Assembly: GCA_005883905.1 (NCBI GenBank)
Contig: VAYD01000183.1
Location: 1-14,415, forward strand
Origin: Actinomycetota bacterium
GTDB lineage: Bacteria > Actinomycetota > Thermoleophilia > Solirubrobacterales > Solirubrobacteraceae
DNA: 14,415 nt
Direction: 5' to 3'
Shown here: piece by piece, positions 4,764 to 10,823 of the stretch
Layout of the letters: every line of letters starts with the position of its first letter
Position numbering within the stretch: the stretch's first letter is position 1
The notes under the pieces: generated by a model
Seen by the model: the letters and a program-made list of their open reading frames with translations, nothing else
What the model was told of the DNA's origin: nothing
Database searches by the model: none
Made by a program: the position numbers and the translations under genes

Positions 4764-4825
4764 AGCGCGGTGGGTGAGACCTTGCAGGCGCGAGGACAGC
4801 GCCGTCCGGGGGCGAACCACGGTGC

Positions 4826-5766
4826 ATGGCGATCGCCCCGGCTCGGCCGGACCAGCGCAGCTTCGAGCACCACGTGCTCGATTTCCTCGCGTACCTGGAA
4901 TACGAGCGCGGGCTGTCGCGCAACACGCTCGAGGCCTACCGATCGGATCTCCTGCAGCTCGGCGACTACCTGCAGCGCGCCCGCGTCGACGTGCTCGACG
5001 CGCGCCACGAGCACCTCGCGGGCTTCCTCTCCGAGCTCGCACGGGGGGCAACGGACGCGCACCGGCGTCGGCCGCCACGCTGCACCGCAAGGCCGCCTGC
5101 CTGCGCTCCTTCTACCGCCACCTGCGGCGCGAGAACGTCATCGACCACGACCCGACCGCCGATCTGCGCGCGCCGCGCAAGAGCCAGAAGCTTCCCCAGG
5201 TCCTGACACGCGGTGAGGTGGCGCAGCTCCTCGGGGCGCCGAAGGGAACGGATCCCTCGGCGCTCCGGGATCGCGCGCTGCTCGAGCTCATGTACGCGTG
5301 CGGGCTGCGCGCCAGCGAGGCGATCGACCTCGACGTCGGCGACGTCGACCTGCGACACGGCGTCCTGCGGGCGCGCGGCAAGGGCTCCAAGGAGCGCCTC
5401 GTCCCGGTTGGGCGCGAGGCGATCGCGGCCGCGCGGACCTACCTGCAGCGCGGCCGCCCCGAGCTGGTCGGCCTGCGCGAGGAGCGGCGGCTGTTCGTCA
5501 ACCGGCGCGGCGGCGGGCTGACACGTCAGGGGCTGTACAAGATCGTCCAGCGCCACGCGCGCGCGGCCGGGCTCGCCGACAAGATGAGCCCGCACACGCT
5601 GCGCCACACGTTCGCCACCCACCTGCTGGCAGGCGGCTGCGACCTGCGCGCCGTGCAGGAGATGCTCGGCCACGCCGACATCGCGACGACGCAGATCTAC
5701 ACGCACCTGTCGGCCGAGCGCCTGAAGGACGTCTACTTCGCGGCGCACCCACGCGCGACCGACTGA
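4826..5766 (+). CDS. xerD: Tyrosine site-specific recombinase XerD/XerC type, with an internal -1 frameshift
   Basis: Xer recombinases resolve chromosome dimers at dif by DNA strand exchange. The N-terminal core-binding domain is read from ATG 4826 (FEHHVLDFLAYLEYERGLS) to about 5047. The rest continues in a different frame from about 5047 (GNGRAPASAATLHRK onward) to the stop at 5766. The switch falls in a run of six G at 5043-5048; one more G would restore a normal protein of about 313 residues. The catalytic set is complete after the shift: Arg in CGLRASE, Lys in GKGSKER, His and Arg in HTLRHTF, His in LGHAD and Tyr in TTQIYTHL. The intact second half argues against an old pseudogene, so an assembly error in the homopolymer or a very recent mutation is likely. 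XerD rather than XerC is inferred from context near a NUDIX gene and pyrG. Confidence 0.85.
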
Positions 5767-6341: not shown

Positions 6342-7187
6342 ATGCCCGAGCTGCCCGAGGTGGAGACGATTCGCCGTCACCTCGCGCCGCGCGTGGAGGG
6401 CCGGGTGCTCACCGAGCTGGACATCGAGGATCCGCGCTGGTGTGAACCGCTGGCGCCCGCCGAGCTGCGCGACGCCGTCGAAGGCCGGGTCGTCGAGAAG
6501 CTCGGGCGGCGCGGCAAGTACCTGGTGTGGGAGCTGGCCGACGAGGTCTTCCTGCTCGTGCACCTGCGCATGACCGGGACGCTGCTGCTCGACCCGGCGC
6601 CCGGTGTCCTGTACCGGCGGGTGCGGTTCGTGCTGTCCGACGGGCACGAGCTGGCGTTCTGCGATCCGCGCCGCTTCGGGACCGGCCAGCTCGTGGTCGG
6701 CTCGGACGCGCTGAAGGCGTTCTTCGCCACCCGCGTCGGCCTCGAGCCGCTCGGGTCCGAGCTGACGGGCGAGACCCTGCGGGCGCTGGCGAAGGGCCGC
6801 CGCGCGCCGATCAAGGCGTTCCTGCTCGACCAGCGGCGGATCGCGGGCGTCGGGAACATCTACGCCGACGAGGCGCTGTTTCGCGCGCGCGTGCACCCGC
6901 TGCGCCCGGCCGGCTCGCTCAAGCGGGCGCAGTACGACGAGCTGGCGGCCGCTGTGCAGGAGGTGCTGGCGGCCGGGATCGACGCCGGCGGCGCGTCGAT
7001 CGACGACTTCCGCCATCCCGACGGCGTGTCGGGCGCGTTCCAGAACGGCTTCCTGGTGCACCTGCGCCGCGGCGAGTCCTGCGTGCGCTGCGGCAGCGAG
7101 ATCGTGAAGTTCGTCGCCGCCGGGCGCGGAACCTATGCGTGCGAGACCTGCCAGCCACGCCCTCGGATTCGCCGGACCGTCGGATAG
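6342..7187 (+). CDS. mutM: Formamidopyrimidine-DNA glycosylase (Fpg/MutM)
   Basis: A 281-residue base-excision repair enzyme that removes 8-oxoguanine and formamidopyrimidines and nicks the abasic site. The N-terminus PELPEVE supplies the catalytic Pro2 nucleophile and Glu3. Lys59 in RRGKYL is the conserved DNA-contacting Lys. The helix-two-turn-helix part includes RRIAGVGNIYADEALF. The C-terminal zinc finger has Cys247, Cys250, Cys267 and Cys270. Length and motifs are normal for the family and no key residue is missing. In other bacteria mutM often sits near polA or coaE; here it is followed after 11 bases by a putative peptide precursor, and its stop codon overlaps a promoter-like hexamer for that gene. 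Confidence 0.95.
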   Translation: MPELPEVETIRRHLAPRVEGRVLTELDIEDPRWCEPLAPAELRDAVEGRVVEKLGRRGKYLVWELADEVFLLVHLRMTGTLLLDPAPGVLYRRVRFVLSDGHELAFCDPRRFGTGQLVVGSDALKAFFATRVGLEPLGSELTGETLRALAKGRRAPIKAFLLDQRRIAGVGNIYADEALFRARVHPLRPAGSLKRAQYDELAAAVQEVLAAGIDAGGASIDDFRHPDGVSGAFQNGFLVHLRRGESCVRCGSEIVKFVAAGRGTYACETCQPRPRIRRTVG

Positions 7188-7198: not shown

Positions 7199-7315
7199 AT
7201 GGACCAGAACGAGCAGCAGGACACCGACTACGAGGCGCCGAAGGTCGAGGACCTCGACGTCAAGGAGAGCCCGGCCACGACTGCGGCCGGCGCCGCCGTC
7301 TCGCCGCCCGCCTGA
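7199..7315 (+). CDS. Putative RiPP precursor peptide (38 residues)
   Basis: A short gene placed exactly between mutM and a radical SAM gene. The first 23 residues are strongly acidic (nine Asp/Glu) and contain YEAPKVEDLD (Tyr11, Pro14, Val16, Leu19). This fits the YxxPx(L/V) leader motif bound by PqqD-like RRE proteins in lasso peptide systems. The last 15 residues (SPATTAAGAAVSPPA) are small, uncharged Ala/Thr/Ser/Pro/Gly/Val and would be the core. The peptide has no Cys, Trp or His, so thioether or Lys-Trp crosslinks are ruled out. Ser24, Thr27, Thr28 and Ser35 are possible kinase targets; the Ala, Val and Pro residues are possible radical SAM targets. The TGA stop is five bases before a possible TTG start of the radical SAM gene. 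Precursor status is inferred from size, composition, motif and context. Confidence 0.65.
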   Translation: MDQNEQQDTDYEAPKVEDLDVKESPATTAAGAAVSPPA

Positions 7316-7320
7316 GGGCT

Positions 7321-8763
7321 TTGCTTCAGCAACGCCTGCCCGCCCCGGTCCGGCGTGTCGCGCGCCGGGCGCGGTGGCGGTCGCCCGCGGGACGCCCTCC
7401 GGCGTCGCCGGTGGGCGTCAAGCTGGAGCTCACGCACGCCTGCAACCTGCGCTGCGGCTTCTGCTACACGGACTCTCCGCGCCACACCCTGGCCCGCACC
7501 CCCGAGCTGGCGGACGCCGACTGGCTGGCGATCGTCGACGAGGCGATCGAGCTCGGCGTCCTGGAGGCGGTGATCACGGGGGGCGAGCCGCTGCTGCGCC
7601 GCGAGCTGACCCTCGCCGTGATCGAGCGGCTCGATGCCGCCGGCGTGGGAACGACGCTGAACACGAACGGCTGGTTCGCCGACGACGCGCTGGCCGACCG
7701 GCTCGCGGCATGCCGCGGCCTCTCCGTCTTCGTCTCGCTCGACGGGGCGACCTCGGCCACCCACGACGGCAGCCGCGGCGTGCCGGGGAGCTGGGCGCGC
7801 GGGGTGGCCGGGATCGACCGCATGCTGTCGCGCGACGTGCCGGTCCGGGTCGTGCACGTGGTCACTCCGGACACCGAGCCGGAGACCGAGGCGCTGATCG
7901 AGCTCTGCTGGCAGCTCGGGGTCAAGTCGGTGCAGATGACGCCTGTGGTGCCCACCGGCGCGGCGGCCCGCGGCGGCGAGTGGAAGGTCGACTCGGCCCG
8001 CCTGCGGCGGATCGCCGACCGTGCCGGCGCGCAGTGGCCGGGCATGCCCGTCAGCGTCCGCACCGGCTCCGTGAACGACGGCATGGGGCCGACGCGAAGG
8101 ACGCCGTTGAGCCTGCTCGTGCGCCCGAGCGGCACGGTGCGGATCGAATCCATCAACCCGTTCTCGTTCGGCGACGCGCGACGCGACGGCCTGGCGAGCT
8201 GTTGGGCGCGGATCGCCGAGGGCTTCGACGCTCCGGAGCTGATGGCGTGGGACCGCAAGCTCGGCGTCATCGGCGACTACGCCAGGCAGGACGTCGTGCC
8301 CTACCTCGACGACGACGTTCCCGCCGACGCGGCGAGCACCTCCGCCGCCGCGCGCGCCGCCGCGCTCAGCGCGCCGGTCCCGGCCAAGGCGAGGGCGCGT
8401 GAGCCTGGGCCCTACGCGAGTGTCGCCGGCGCGCACGCCCACGCCCGCGAGCTTGCGCTCGCGCGCCGCTACCGCAGCGGGGCGGTCCGCGTCAGCGGCC
8501 AGCACGTACGGATCCCCGCCACCGGCGCGATCACGCGCCTCAACGCGACGGCGCTCACTGTGCTCGACGCGTGCTCGCCGGGCACGGCGGCCGACGTGAT
8601 GGCTGCGCTGCGGGCCGCGTACCCGTCCGAGCCACCGGACCGGATCGAGCGCGACGTGCGCGGGACGATCCGCTCGTTGGCCGCGCGGGGCATCCTGCGC
8701 CCCGCGCTCGCCGCCGGCGATCTGCCGTCGACGGCCGACGGCACCGTCGACCTGCCGGTTTAG
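7321..8763 (+). CDS. Radical SAM peptide-modifying enzyme with C-terminal PqqD-like (RRE) domain
   Basis: From TTG 7321 the protein has 480 residues. Cys41, Cys45 and Cys48 in ACNLRCGFC form the CxxxCxxC site that holds the [4Fe-4S] cluster cleaving S-adenosylmethionine, and GGEP at 87-90 is the usual SAM contact. After the barrel, GTVRIESINPFSFGDAR followed by SCW looks like a SPASM/twitch region without its cluster cysteines. A disordered Ala-rich linker leads to a PqqD-like domain at about 385-465 (GAITRLNATALTVLDAC), expected to bind the leader of the neighbouring peptide. The start is uncertain: GTG 7411 (450 residues) skips an Arg-rich stretch, while TTG 7321 is five bases after the precursor stop and could be coupled. 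The product modification is unknown. The stop codon overlaps that of the opposing RRE gene. Confidence 0.88.
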   Translation: MLQQRLPAPVRRVARRARWRSPAGRPPASPVGVKLELTHACNLRCGFCYTDSPRHTLARTPELADADWLAIVDEAIELGVLEAVITGGEPLLRRELTLAVIERLDAAGVGTTLNTNGWFADDALADRLAACRGLSVFVSLDGATSATHDGSRGVPGSWARGVAGIDRMLSRDVPVRVVHVVTPDTEPETEALIELCWQLGVKSVQMTPVVPTGAAARGGEWKVDSARLRRIADRAGAQWPGMPVSVRTGSVNDGMGPTRRTPLSLLVRPSGTVRIESINPFSFGDARRDGLASCWARIAEGFDAPELMAWDRKLGVIGDYARQDVVPYLDDDVPADAASTSAAARAAALSAPVPAKARAREPGPYASVAGAHAHARELALARRYRSGAVRVSGQHVRIPATGAITRLNATALTVLDACSPGTAADVMAALRAAYPSEPPDRIERDVRGTIRSLAARGILRPALAAGDLPSTADGTVDLPV

Positions 8764-9047
8764 ACGTCCTGAATGAGCTCGCGGGCGCGCAGCGCGTCCA
8801 GGAACGCGGCCGCGTCGCGTTCGGCGACGGCGCGCTCGATGCCGTGGCGCTCGGAGAGGGCCTCAGCGATGTCGGCGGGTGTGCACGGCTCGGCGAGCAG
8901 ATCCCAGATCACGGCGCCGGTCGCATTCAGGCGCAGGTAGCGATCGCCGACCGGATCGAGGAGGACCGTCTCGCCGGCCACCGTCTCGGTCACCGCCCAC
9001 CCGACGCGCTGCACCTGTGCGGGCGCACCTACGATGTCGCCTCCCAT
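8760..9047 (-). CDS. Free-standing PqqD family / RRE peptide-binding protein
   Basis: A 95-residue winged-helix protein of the PqqD family, which binds leader peptides and hands them to modifying enzymes. Visible features are the beta-hairpin GETVLLDPVGDRYLRLN, the family signature NATGAVIWDLL and C-terminal helices ending DALRARELIQDV. This is a second RRE besides the one fused to the radical SAM enzyme; it may serve another substrate or step. ATG 9047 is chosen because TACAGT lies nine bases upstream. GTG 9014 with AGGTG eleven bases before it, or ATG 9074, are alternatives. The start codon overlaps that of the divergent kinase-like gene, and the stop (TAA) shares bases with the radical SAM stop (TAG) within TTAG. 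Confidence 0.85.
   Translation of the reverse strand: MGGDIVGAPAQVQRVGWAVTETVAGETVLLDPVGDRYLRLNATGAVIWDLLAEPCTPADIAEALSERHGIERAVAERDAAAFLDALRARELIQDV
9030..9035 (+). promoter_or_regulatory. Candidate -10 element for the kinase-like gene (TACGAT)
   Basis: TACGAT is ten bases before ATG 9046 with no Shine-Dalgarno between. It lies inside the coding region of the opposing RRE gene. If it is a -10 element, an ATG inside it at 9034 is not the start. Confidence 0.35.
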
Positions 9048-9894
9048 GGGGGCGACACTGTACGGGTACGCCATCGAGTCCGACCTGCCGCTGCCGCGCG
9101 CGCGCAGCGGGCCCGCGACGCGGGGCACGATCCGCGTGCGGGCGACCGACGAGGATCTGCTCGCCCGGCACGGGCGACTCGTTCGCTACGAACCCGCTGT
9201 CTGGGCCGTGGCGCGGACCCGCGAAGGGATCCTCGTCTGGTGTCCCGGGACCGGCAGCTACCACGCGGACGTCGCCGCCGGGCTCGTCGAGGTGCGCCCG
9301 GACGAGCGCTTCGAGGGGTTCCTCGAGCACCGGCTCGCCTGCCTGGTCGTGCCGTTGCTGCTGGCCGAGCGCGGCGATCTCGCGCTGCACGCGGCGGTGC
9401 TGGCGCGTGACGGGAGGGCGGTGGCGTTCTGCGGCGAGACGATGCGCGGGAAGTCGACGATCGCGGCGGAGCTCGCCGCACGCGGCTGCGACCTGCTCGG
9501 AGACGACAGCGCGGTGCTGTCGCTCGAGGGAGACGATGCGGTCACCGTCTGGCCCGGACCTTCGGGCTCGCGGCTCCGCAGCCCGGGGGAGCGTGCGCTG
9601 CGCCGCCTGGTCCATGCCGACCGCGGCCGCGACCAGACCGCTCCCGTGCCCCTCGCCGCCGCCGTCGTGCTCGACGAGCGCGGCGGCGACCGGATCGCGC
9701 TCGAGCAGATGGCGCCCGTGATCGCCGCCACGAGCCTGTACGCCTACGCGCCCCAGGCGGATGGTCCGGCGGTTGCGCGGACGTTCGCCCTGTCCGCGCG
9801 CCTCGCCGAACGGGTGCCGGTCTATCGCGCGCGGATGCCAGACGCACGCCGCGGCGCTGTTCAACGCAGTGATCTGATCCCCGCGGCCATGTAG
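9046..9894 (+). CDS. HPr kinase-like P-loop protein, putative peptide Ser/Thr kinase
   Basis: A 282-residue protein whose second half resembles the C-terminal domain of HPr kinase/phosphorylase. His115 in LALHAAVL precedes the Walker A loop GETMRGKST (130-138, Lys136) and the acidic LLGDDSAVL (Asp153, Asp154). The N-terminal 100 residues are not recognised. There is no HPr gene here. Relatives in lasso peptide clusters, such as the paeninodin kinase, phosphorylate a Ser of the peptide; a similar role on the 38-residue peptide is inferred. ATG 9046 overlaps the ATG of the RRE gene on the other strand by two bases; ATG 9034 in frame is an alternative. The last 34 bases overlap the opposing nucleotidyltransferase gene. 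Confidence 0.8.
   Translation: MGATLYGYAIESDLPLPRARSGPATRGTIRVRATDEDLLARHGRLVRYEPAVWAVARTREGILVWCPGTGSYHADVAAGLVEVRPDERFEGFLEHRLACLVVPLLLAERGDLALHAAVLARDGRAVAFCGETMRGKSTIAAELAARGCDLLGDDSAVLSLEGDDAVTVWPGPSGSRLRSPGERALRRLVHADRGRDQTAPVPLAAAVVLDERGGDRIALEQMAPVIAATSLYAYAPQADGPAVARTFALSARLAERVPVYRARMPDARRGAVQRSDLIPAAM
9057..9062 (-). promoter_or_regulatory. Candidate -10 element for the RRE gene (TACAGT)
   Basis: On the minus strand TACAGT is nine bases before ATG 9047, inside the coding region of the kinase-like gene. It mirrors the plus-strand hexamer at 9030-9035 around the shared CCATGG start. Confidence 0.35.
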
Positions 9895-10823
9895 CGCAGC
9901 CGCTCGCGCCCGTTCAGCGCGGCGAGCCTCCCGACGTGGACGGCGACCGGGCGCGGTGCGCACCACAGGGCGGTGCGCAGCGGGCCGAGCGGCGGTTTCG
10001 GCGGCCGCGGCGCCGATCGCTGCACGGCGAGGCCGGCGAACCGCTCGGCGGCGTGGAGCGCGAGATGGAGCTCCCACGCGACGCCGTGACGCGCGGCGAC
10101 GTCGAACGCGTGTGAAACGTCGGCCGCCCGCGCCGCAAGCGCGACGTCCTGCACCATCGCGAGCCGGCGGTCGGGGTGCGCGACGAGGTGCAGCGCGAGC
10201 GCGACGAGCAGCTCCGCCGTCGCGGGCACGATCGCTCCGTCCAGCGCGGCCCCGCCCCGCGCGAGAACGTCGCGATCCAGCGCGTTCGCGCGGGGGTCGT
10301 CGACCAGCCGCCAGTGGAGCTCGAGGCCGACCGCCTTCGTCCCGATCTCGCGCCCGAGCCCGAGCTCGTGGCCATAGGCCTCGGCGAAGCCCCGCCAAGG
10401 CTCGCCGCCTGCGACGCCCATCCGCGGCGCGCGGCTGAGCTGCCAGCCGTCCGCCTGCAGCGCCGTGGCGGCCAGGCGCAGCTGCGCCTTAGGCACGACG
10501 AGGTCCAGGTCGCCATACGCGCGAAGCTCGGGCGAGGGATGCAGCGCCGCGGCGGCCGGGCCCTTGACGAGCACCGGCGGCTCGCCGGCCGCGTCGGCGA
10601 CCACACGCGCGGCGTCCGGCAGCTGCGCGCGGACCAGCGCGGTCGACAGGGCGATCTGGCGGTGCGCATCGAGCAGCGGTGAAGCCGGATCGGCGCGCAC
10701 GGCATAACCCTGGAGCCGGTGATAGAGGGCTGCGCGCGTCGTGGCACAGTCGTGCGGCAGCGGGCGTCCCTCGGTCAGGAGTGCGGTCAGCGCCGGGAGC
10801 TGCGCGGCGTGGGCGAAATGCAC
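9861..10823 (-). CDS. Nucleotidyltransferase-fold protein (NTP_transf_5-like)
   Basis: A 320-residue protein of the uncharacterised nucleotidyltransferase family often found in RiPP and polysaccharide clusters. The signature is VLVKGPAAA (Lys87, Gly88) followed by ELRAYGDLDLVV, with Arg101 and the metal-binding pair Asp105 and Asp107. The remaining C-terminal two-thirds are helical with several His and Arg (for example LELHWRLVDD). Such genes accompany HPr-kinase-like genes in some lasso peptide clusters, where they are thought to modify the peptide further; the donor here is unknown. The GTG start is three bases after the glutaredoxin stop, so both are probably one transcript. The 3' end overlaps the kinase-like gene by 34 bases on the other strand. 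Confidence 0.82.
   Translation of the reverse strand: MHFAHAAQLPALTALLTEGRPLPHDCATTRAALYHRLQGYAVRADPASPLLDAHRQIALSTALVRAQLPDAARVVADAAGEPPVLVKGPAAAALHPSPELRAYGDLDLVVPKAQLRLAATALQADGWQLSRAPRMGVAGGEPWRGFAEAYGHELGLGREIGTKAVGLELHWRLVDDPRANALDRDVLARGGAALDGAIVPATAELLVALALHLVAHPDRRLAMVQDVALAARAADVSHAFDVAARHGVAWELHLALHAAERFAGLAVQRSAPRPPKPPLGPLRTALWCAPRPVAVHVGRLAALNGRERLRYMAAGIRSLR

Follow-up and report, generated by a model that had tools for sequence, protein, structure and literature searches.

A candidate radical SAM RiPP cassette with an HprK-type kinase and a nucleotidyltransferase-like protein in Thermoleophilia

Organization of the locus

The 14,415-nucleotide contig VAYD01000183.1 (assembly GCA_005883905.1; hereafter, at its full length, the window) belongs to a genome bin of the Solirubrobacteraceae (Actinomycetota; Thermoleophilia) with 64.75% completeness and carries a cassette of five tightly packed genes, flanked by mutM (6342-7187) on one side and a glutaredoxin/recO pair on the other, which we interpret as a candidate system for a ribosomally synthesized and post-translationally modified peptide (RiPP). 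The cassette comprises a 38-residue precursor peptide (7199..7315, forward strand; MDQNEQQDTDYEAPKVEDLDVKESPATTAAGAAVSPPA); a 480-residue radical S-adenosylmethionine (SAM) enzyme with a C-terminal RiPP recognition element (RRE), read from a TTG start (7321..8763, forward); a discrete, PqqD-like RRE (8760..9047, reverse), for which ATG 9047 was taken as the start in a frame open to 9128; an HprK-type kinase (9034..9894, or from an alternative ATG at 9046, forward); and an NTP_transf_5 nucleotidyltransferase-like protein with a GDLDLVV signature (9861..10823, reverse). An initial annotation, made from the letters alone, had placed five adjacent genes between mutM and recO, and all are present; its radical SAM motif, two PqqD-like domains, HPr-kinase type, GDLD signature and YxxP-bearing 38-residue peptide are each borne out by the comparisons described below.

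The TTG of the radical SAM gene lies 5 nucleotides past the stop of the peptide. Along the cassette the strands alternate and the gene ends overlap (8755-9894): the stop codons of the radical SAM and discrete RRE genes overlap tail to tail, the RRE (ATG 9047) and kinase (ATG 9046) genes could start head to head on a single CCATGG, and the 3′ ends of the kinase and nucleotidyltransferase genes overlap. No Rfam match was found in the window.

The precursor peptide family

With a profile constructed from six peptides, 316 proteins were retrieved from the database (E<=1); the best 120 of them were inspected and 119 anchored on the motif, and these counts include the peptide of the window and those of the other loci described below. 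The possibility that the small open reading frame (ORF) is a chance frame was rejected on account of these matches and of the related peptides found at the same place in all four loci, i.e., the window and three other genomes. The leader of the window peptide bears the putative recognition motif YEAPKVEDL (Y11-L19; 7229..7255, forward), an instance of the family motif YExPxVEDL, in which the tyrosine is conserved in 118/119 anchored homologs, the glutamate in 116/119, the proline in 119/119 and the valine at +5 in 113/119. It is followed by the core motif SPATTAAG (7268..7291, forward; family consensus GPAVTAAG), whose successive positions from the proline onward are conserved in 114 (P), 104 (A), 104 (V), 117 (T), 117 (A), 118 (A) and 112 (G) of the 119, all these conservation figures being inflated because the relatives were found by similarity. 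Exact PAVTAAG is present in 96/120 inspected peptides and exact GPAVTAAG in 83/120. The core, which is devoid of cysteine and aromatic residues, is thus strongly conserved over the anchored peptides, whereas the N-termini and tails vary.

The variable tail of the window peptide, AAVSPPA (7292..7312, forward), contains Ser35, a candidate phospho-acceptor. Across the family the tails are short (2-8 residues in 103/119 anchored peptides) and nearly always contain a serine or threonine (117/119), with one at tail position 2 in 86/119; these two amino acids account for 24% of tail residues. An NCBIfam scan of six peptides matched no family, and a Pfam scan of four returned a sole, sub-threshold match, DUF4927 (0.053), for the window peptide. 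Contigs of identical size are common to two to four inspected peptides in 16 groups, some short ones of which may coincide by chance; these groups suggest tandem precursors, as observed directly in two other thermoleophilial loci, L024 and L026.

The radical SAM enzyme and its fused RRE

The enzyme encoded immediately downstream of the peptide contains a Radical_SAM domain (Pfam, 2.7e-18) with the [4Fe-4S] motif CNLRCGFC (7441..7464, forward), whose cysteines C41, C45 and C48 are present in 42/42 aligned family members, and a C-terminal PqqD-like domain (PF05402, 1.6e-8; residues 399-459; 8515..8697, forward). Profile A1, from the alignment of this enzyme, matches the lasso-peptide RRE TfuB1 (6jx3) at 1.1e-4 across that domain. 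The AlphaFold model (pLDDT 88.3) places SkfB and SuiB, both RiPP maturases, on top in Foldseek/VIA comparisons, and the radical SAM half shares the fold of SkfB, SuiB and EpeE. These maturases carry auxiliary Fe-S clusters. The window family, in contrast, has the single CxxxCxxC motif and no invariant cysteines besides its three in the 42 members. Six columns that hold cysteine in 6/6 SPASM-type relatives hold it in 0/42 members of the window family, and the position of the SPASM VPC cysteine is occupied by Glu276 in the window enzyme and by Asp or Glu in 35/42 members.

The best NCBIfam match of the enzyme is the SynChlorMet protein ScmF, considered below with the other members of that system. 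The PQQ (pyrroloquinoline quinone) and mycofactocin families were rejected as assignments, with 70.7 of 381 bits for PqqE and 84.7 of 265 bits for MftC.

The discrete RRE, kinase and nucleotidyltransferase-like protein

The discrete RRE is a clear PqqD domain (PF05402, 1.3e-19) with a lasso-like character: it matches the lasso PqqD model NF033530 at 3.2e-14, under the cut-off, and the lasso RREs TbiB1 and TfuB1 at 1.6e-8 and 8.4e-8, respectively. The kinase is weak by sequence, with matches to Hpr_kinase_C (0.018, under the Pfam cut-off) and HprK_rel_A TIGR04352 (2.3e-10, under the NCBI cut-off), and the kinases outside the window likewise match weakly (TIGR04355, 4.5e-9; TIGR04352, 2.9e-7; Hpr_kinase_C, 9.2e-4). 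In Foldseek searches with its AlphaFold model (pLDDT 85.9), HPr kinase/phosphatases come first, phosphoenolpyruvate carboxykinases also appearing in the top rows. Among 29 aligned kinases, H119, K140 and D158 are invariant, and position 157 is divided between Asp (13 kinases) and Glu (16 kinases). The last gene encodes an NTP_transf_5 protein (PF14907, 2.2e-24), and the same domain is found in other loci of the family: L024 (1.8e-33), L123 (6.3e-35) and L026 (1.5e-12).

Conservation and distribution of the cassette

Nearly full-length relatives of the radical SAM-RRE fusion are limited, among the matches listed in a scan of named genomes (80 loci), to L024 and L026, with 45 and 48% identity. 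In both of these loci the fusion gene is immediately preceded by two small ORFs, all with the YExPx(V/I)E-L and TAA motifs. In another genome, G777, a single peptide of this kind is followed by a radical SAM gene that runs off the contig, and a second contig holds the remaining cassette genes. In all four genomes with a readable radical SAM gene, one or two YExP peptides are located directly upstream of it and are followed by the radical SAM-RRE fusion, discrete RRE, kinase and nucleotidyltransferase genes, in the same order and on the same alternating strands. The initial annotation had proposed a search of related genomes for this gene set with an equally placed YxxP ORF, and had named homologous loci lacking a conserved small peptide as the observation that would count against it; the search recovered both the set and the peptide in 4/4. 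PqqD Pfam matches at E<=0.001 number exactly two in each of these genomes, all inside the cassette. The scores of custom hidden Markov models at the cassette loci add no proof, because the models were built from those loci. Two of the four cassettes have an additional formyltransferase-like gene between the radical SAM and RRE genes (L024:9393-10376; L123:759-1718).

At E<=1e-60, the radical SAM family was recovered, besides the genome of the window, only in G153, G323 and G777, in overlapping samples of 399 genomes of the class, 396 of the phylum, 103 of the family of G153, 232 of the window's own order and 129 of the order of G153. Within the 399 genomes of the class the enzyme is found in 3 and the peptide in 4, all 3 genomes with the enzyme also having the peptide. 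In the protein database the radical SAM family has 518 matches at E<=1e-20, of which 120 were inspected. Of the kinase clusters, 31 have a longest contig of at least 3 kb, and 12 of these match exactly the size of a contig of the 120 radical SAM clusters, the mean expected by chance being 0.26. The link made in this way is indirect; for one pair of the 12, at 7758 bases, the identities fit poorly and the agreement may be a coincidence. Viral contigs gave 6 weak matches, and no plasmid record covered 80% of the query.

SPASM-type relatives in the same class

In one radical SAM scan, 19 of 21 places were distant radical SAM proteins; six of these have a kinase match in their flanks of about 1.5 kb, and only those six were read more widely (L124-L129). 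All six combine an HprK-like kinase with an adjacent small ORF containing a [YW]xxP motif and cysteine, and their radical SAM proteins all retain the SPASM cysteines. An RRE match is present in 4/6, and none of the six loci has a nucleotidyltransferase match. In four loci (L124, L125, L126 and L129) the small ORFs contain EPLAYAC and have Trp in the core, and the remaining two have different Cys-containing small ORFs. Of three kinases scanned, those of L126 and L128 match ScmC best (7.5e-13 and 8.4e-8), under the cut-off.

These loci, look-alikes of the SynChlorMet type (ScmC, ScmD, ScmE and ScmF), share with the window an HprK-like kinase, a radical SAM protein and a small [YW]xxP ORF. They differ in their six further radical SAM cysteines and Cys-containing small ORFs, neither of which is found in the window family, which for its part has the C-terminal RRE, the Cys-less core and the nucleotidyltransferase gene. 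Given the cysteines and SPASM motifs of L124-L129, the window cassette appears to form a branch of the RRE/kinase/radical SAM RiPP cassettes that is devoid of both the Cys and the SPASM feature and has, in addition, a nucleotidyltransferase gene. The comparison with SynChlorMet is by way of its family models rather than its gene make-up, and the window proteins fall short of the NCBIfam equivalog cut-offs (ScmC, 27.9 of 125 bits; ScmD, 13.7 of 100; ScmF, 94.9 of 400). Outside the class, a deltaproteobacterial locus (L046:10086-11207) contains a distant radical SAM relative together with an HprK-like kinase match (1.4e-6).

Relationship to lasso and linear polyphosphorylated peptide systems

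The initial annotation had linked the kinase and nucleotidyltransferase to the tailoring enzymes of paeninodin-type lasso peptides, a link that finds support in PMC9266682 and PMC13381572. According to the former, PadeK phosphorylates the C-terminal serine of a lasso precursor, kinases of its type require a His-Lys-Asp-Asp set, and PsmN either adds a hexose to the phosphorylated serine or acts as a nucleotidyltransferase, with the host performing the glycosylation. The latter describes clusters for linear polyphosphorylated peptides (LPPs), with an RRE, an HprK kinase, an NTP transferase, an SpI peptidase and an exporter and without a lasso cyclase, whose 1-3 precursors are phosphorylated on Ser3 of the core.

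The window shares with the paeninodin type the discrete lasso-like RRE, an HprK-type kinase (in whose family the His, Lys and second Asp of the His-Lys-Asp-Asp set are invariant and the first Asp is Glu in 16/29), the NTP transferase and the [YW]xxP leader, and differs in its radical SAM-RRE fusion, in lacking a detectable B2 peptidase, in its unconserved C-terminal serine and in its tails of mostly 2-8 residues. The B2 leader peptidase domain PF13471 was found in none of the four cassette genomes (one 94% complete, three 60-67%) and in 2/14 control genomes, and a lasso peptide was rejected as our preferred interpretation on this ground. Among the window proteins scanned there is no Asn synthetase-like macrolactam synthetase, a genome-wide search for which was not run.

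With the LPP systems of PMC13381572, the window has in common an RRE, HprK kinase and NTP transferase without a lasso cyclase and the YxxPxV start of the leader; the rest of the LPP precursor motif YxxPxVLxHQxIxFETxxS is different in the window family. An SpI-type peptidase, an MsbA-like exporter, variable cores and a mostly Bacillota distribution are peculiar to the LPP systems, whereas the radical SAM-RRE fusion, the conserved core and the occurrence in Thermoleophilia are peculiar to the window family; neither such a peptidase nor such an exporter was found among the window proteins scanned, the rest of the genome not having been searched.

The earlier statement that no described pathway has exactly this set therefore has to be narrowed: near relatives exist in the LPP clusters and, within the class itself, in the kinase and radical SAM/SPASM cassettes whose precursors contain Cys, while the combination of radical SAM-RRE fusion, Cys-less core and nucleotidyltransferase does differ from them. 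Among the papers listed from the open-licence literature of PubMed Central (PMC), the strings PAVTAAG and GPAVTA gave no match and VEDLDT occurs only in papers with unrelated titles; SynChlorMet, HPr-rel-A and HprK-related are not mentioned there, and no title or abstract opening describes this cassette.

Other features of the window

Upstream of the cassette, a XerC/D-like tyrosine recombinase (4774-5766) is split over two frames, with the N-terminal domain at 4826-5206 and the catalytic domain at 4774-5766; the split may reflect either a sequencing error or a real frameshift.

Proposed function and alternative interpretations

The gene set and its order, the peptide family, the domain folds and the lost SPASM cysteines can be read directly from the sequences and models. 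They are best read as a variant of the RRE-guided radical SAM RiPP systems whose RRE, kinase and nucleotidyltransferase part resembles that of the paeninodin-type lasso and LPP clusters, and the cassette very probably serves to modify tiny peptides of ribosomal origin whose GPAVTAAG-like ending is almost constant. We propose, as a likely account, that both RREs bind the YExPxVEDL leader, the fused one handing the core to the radical SAM active site and the discrete one serving the kinase and nucleotidyltransferase in the same way. The single-cluster radical SAM enzyme would then alter a residue with an aliphatic or hydroxyl side chain in the PAVTAAG core; for this reaction our tentative suggestion is epimerization, or some other reaction by C-H abstraction at one site, with Val, Thr or Ala as the target. 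The HprK-like kinase would phosphorylate a Ser or Thr in the short tail, the NTP_transf_5 protein may decorate the resulting phosphate, and a protease from outside the cassette would cut off the leader. In the view of the initial annotation, the radical SAM enzyme would stand in for the protease and cyclase of the lasso systems.

Several observations weigh against this proposal. We infer every chemical step, the order of the steps and the role of the product. The genomic context comes from only four genomes, three of them 60-67% complete, and the conservation of the peptides is overstated by the way they were collected. The clearest result against a strict linkage of peptide and enzymes is provided by G023 (99% complete; in one genus group with G777), a genome with a lone precursor-like peptide (L139, about 9416-9500, corresponding to G023:C18:73415-73498): genome scans gave no radical SAM match, and the 19 kb around the peptide contain no radical SAM, kinase, RRE or nucleotidyltransferase gene, so that the peptide is either an orphan or the relic of a cassette. 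Beside the window cassette there is no gene for an exporter or a leader peptidase, the sole peptidase among the scanned window proteins being an M20 enzyme 6 kb upstream. The only serine of the window tail is at position 4 instead of the favored position 2, and a C-terminal serine, the site used by the paeninodin kinase, is present in just 25/120 peptides. In the enzyme, Cys294, a conceivable H-atom donor, is absent in 6/42 members, and its fold is also matched by BlsE, viperin and DesII, which act on non-peptides.

In one alternative the peptide is a carrier whose core is turned into a single small molecule resembling a cofactor, in the manner of PQQ or mycofactocin, the excised product being what matters. 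The conserved core between varying N-termini and tails and the missing exporter and leader peptidase would fit this possibility, as would an RRE motif that, according to PMC13381572, is common to PQQ precursors. We nevertheless hold it to be unlikely: L024 and L026 each have two precursors with different tails in one locus, and the Ser or Thr kept in 117/119 tails would be needless if the tail were discarded. PQQ and mycofactocin, moreover, are formed from Tyr residues of their precursors, and the core studied here has no Tyr.

The RRE, kinase, nucleotidyltransferase and YxxP leader are common to the paeninodin-type lasso and LPP systems, and the cassette might be part of a divergent pathway of that sort, with its peptidase and cyclase elsewhere in the genome and the radical SAM enzyme as an add-on tailoring activity. 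This appears very improbable, given that PF13471 was found in none of the four genomes (one 94% complete, three 60-67%), and given the confinement to the cassette of both PqqD domains that each genome has. Further, a lasso ring and tail need more than 2-8 residues, and with that length in 103/119 peptides the tails here are too short for both. Least probable of all, to the point of being remote, is a radical SAM enzyme acting on a non-peptide substrate such as a sugar or nucleotide, with the peptides as mere RRE-bound regulators. The NTP_transf_5 protein and, in 2/4 genomes, the formyltransferase-like gene do recall nucleotide-sugar chemistry, in line with the matches to BlsE, viperin and DesII, but the radical SAM enzyme itself bears a fused RRE, and its best structural matches are RiPP maturases.

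Implications

Taking the peptide-modifying cassette as our preferred interpretation, we see about even chances that it represents a distinct RiPP class, apparently spread among Thermoleophilia that have not been cultured. In such a class a radical SAM enzyme devoid of SPASM but equipped with a C-terminal RRE would act on a Pro-Ala-Val-Thr-Ala-Ala-Gly core, while the tail would be phosphorylated and decorated with a nucleotidyl or glycosyl group. The product would be a linear, phosphorylated peptide in which the active centre is fixed and the tail varies. The cassette would offer a compact and clearly delimited set of genes for radical chemistry on residues without an obvious radical handle, and it provides an example of an RRE fused to a radical SAM enzyme that has lost the SPASM cysteines. 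It would thereby join the world of radical SAM enzymes to the kinase and nucleotidyltransferase tailoring module of the lasso and LPP peptides.

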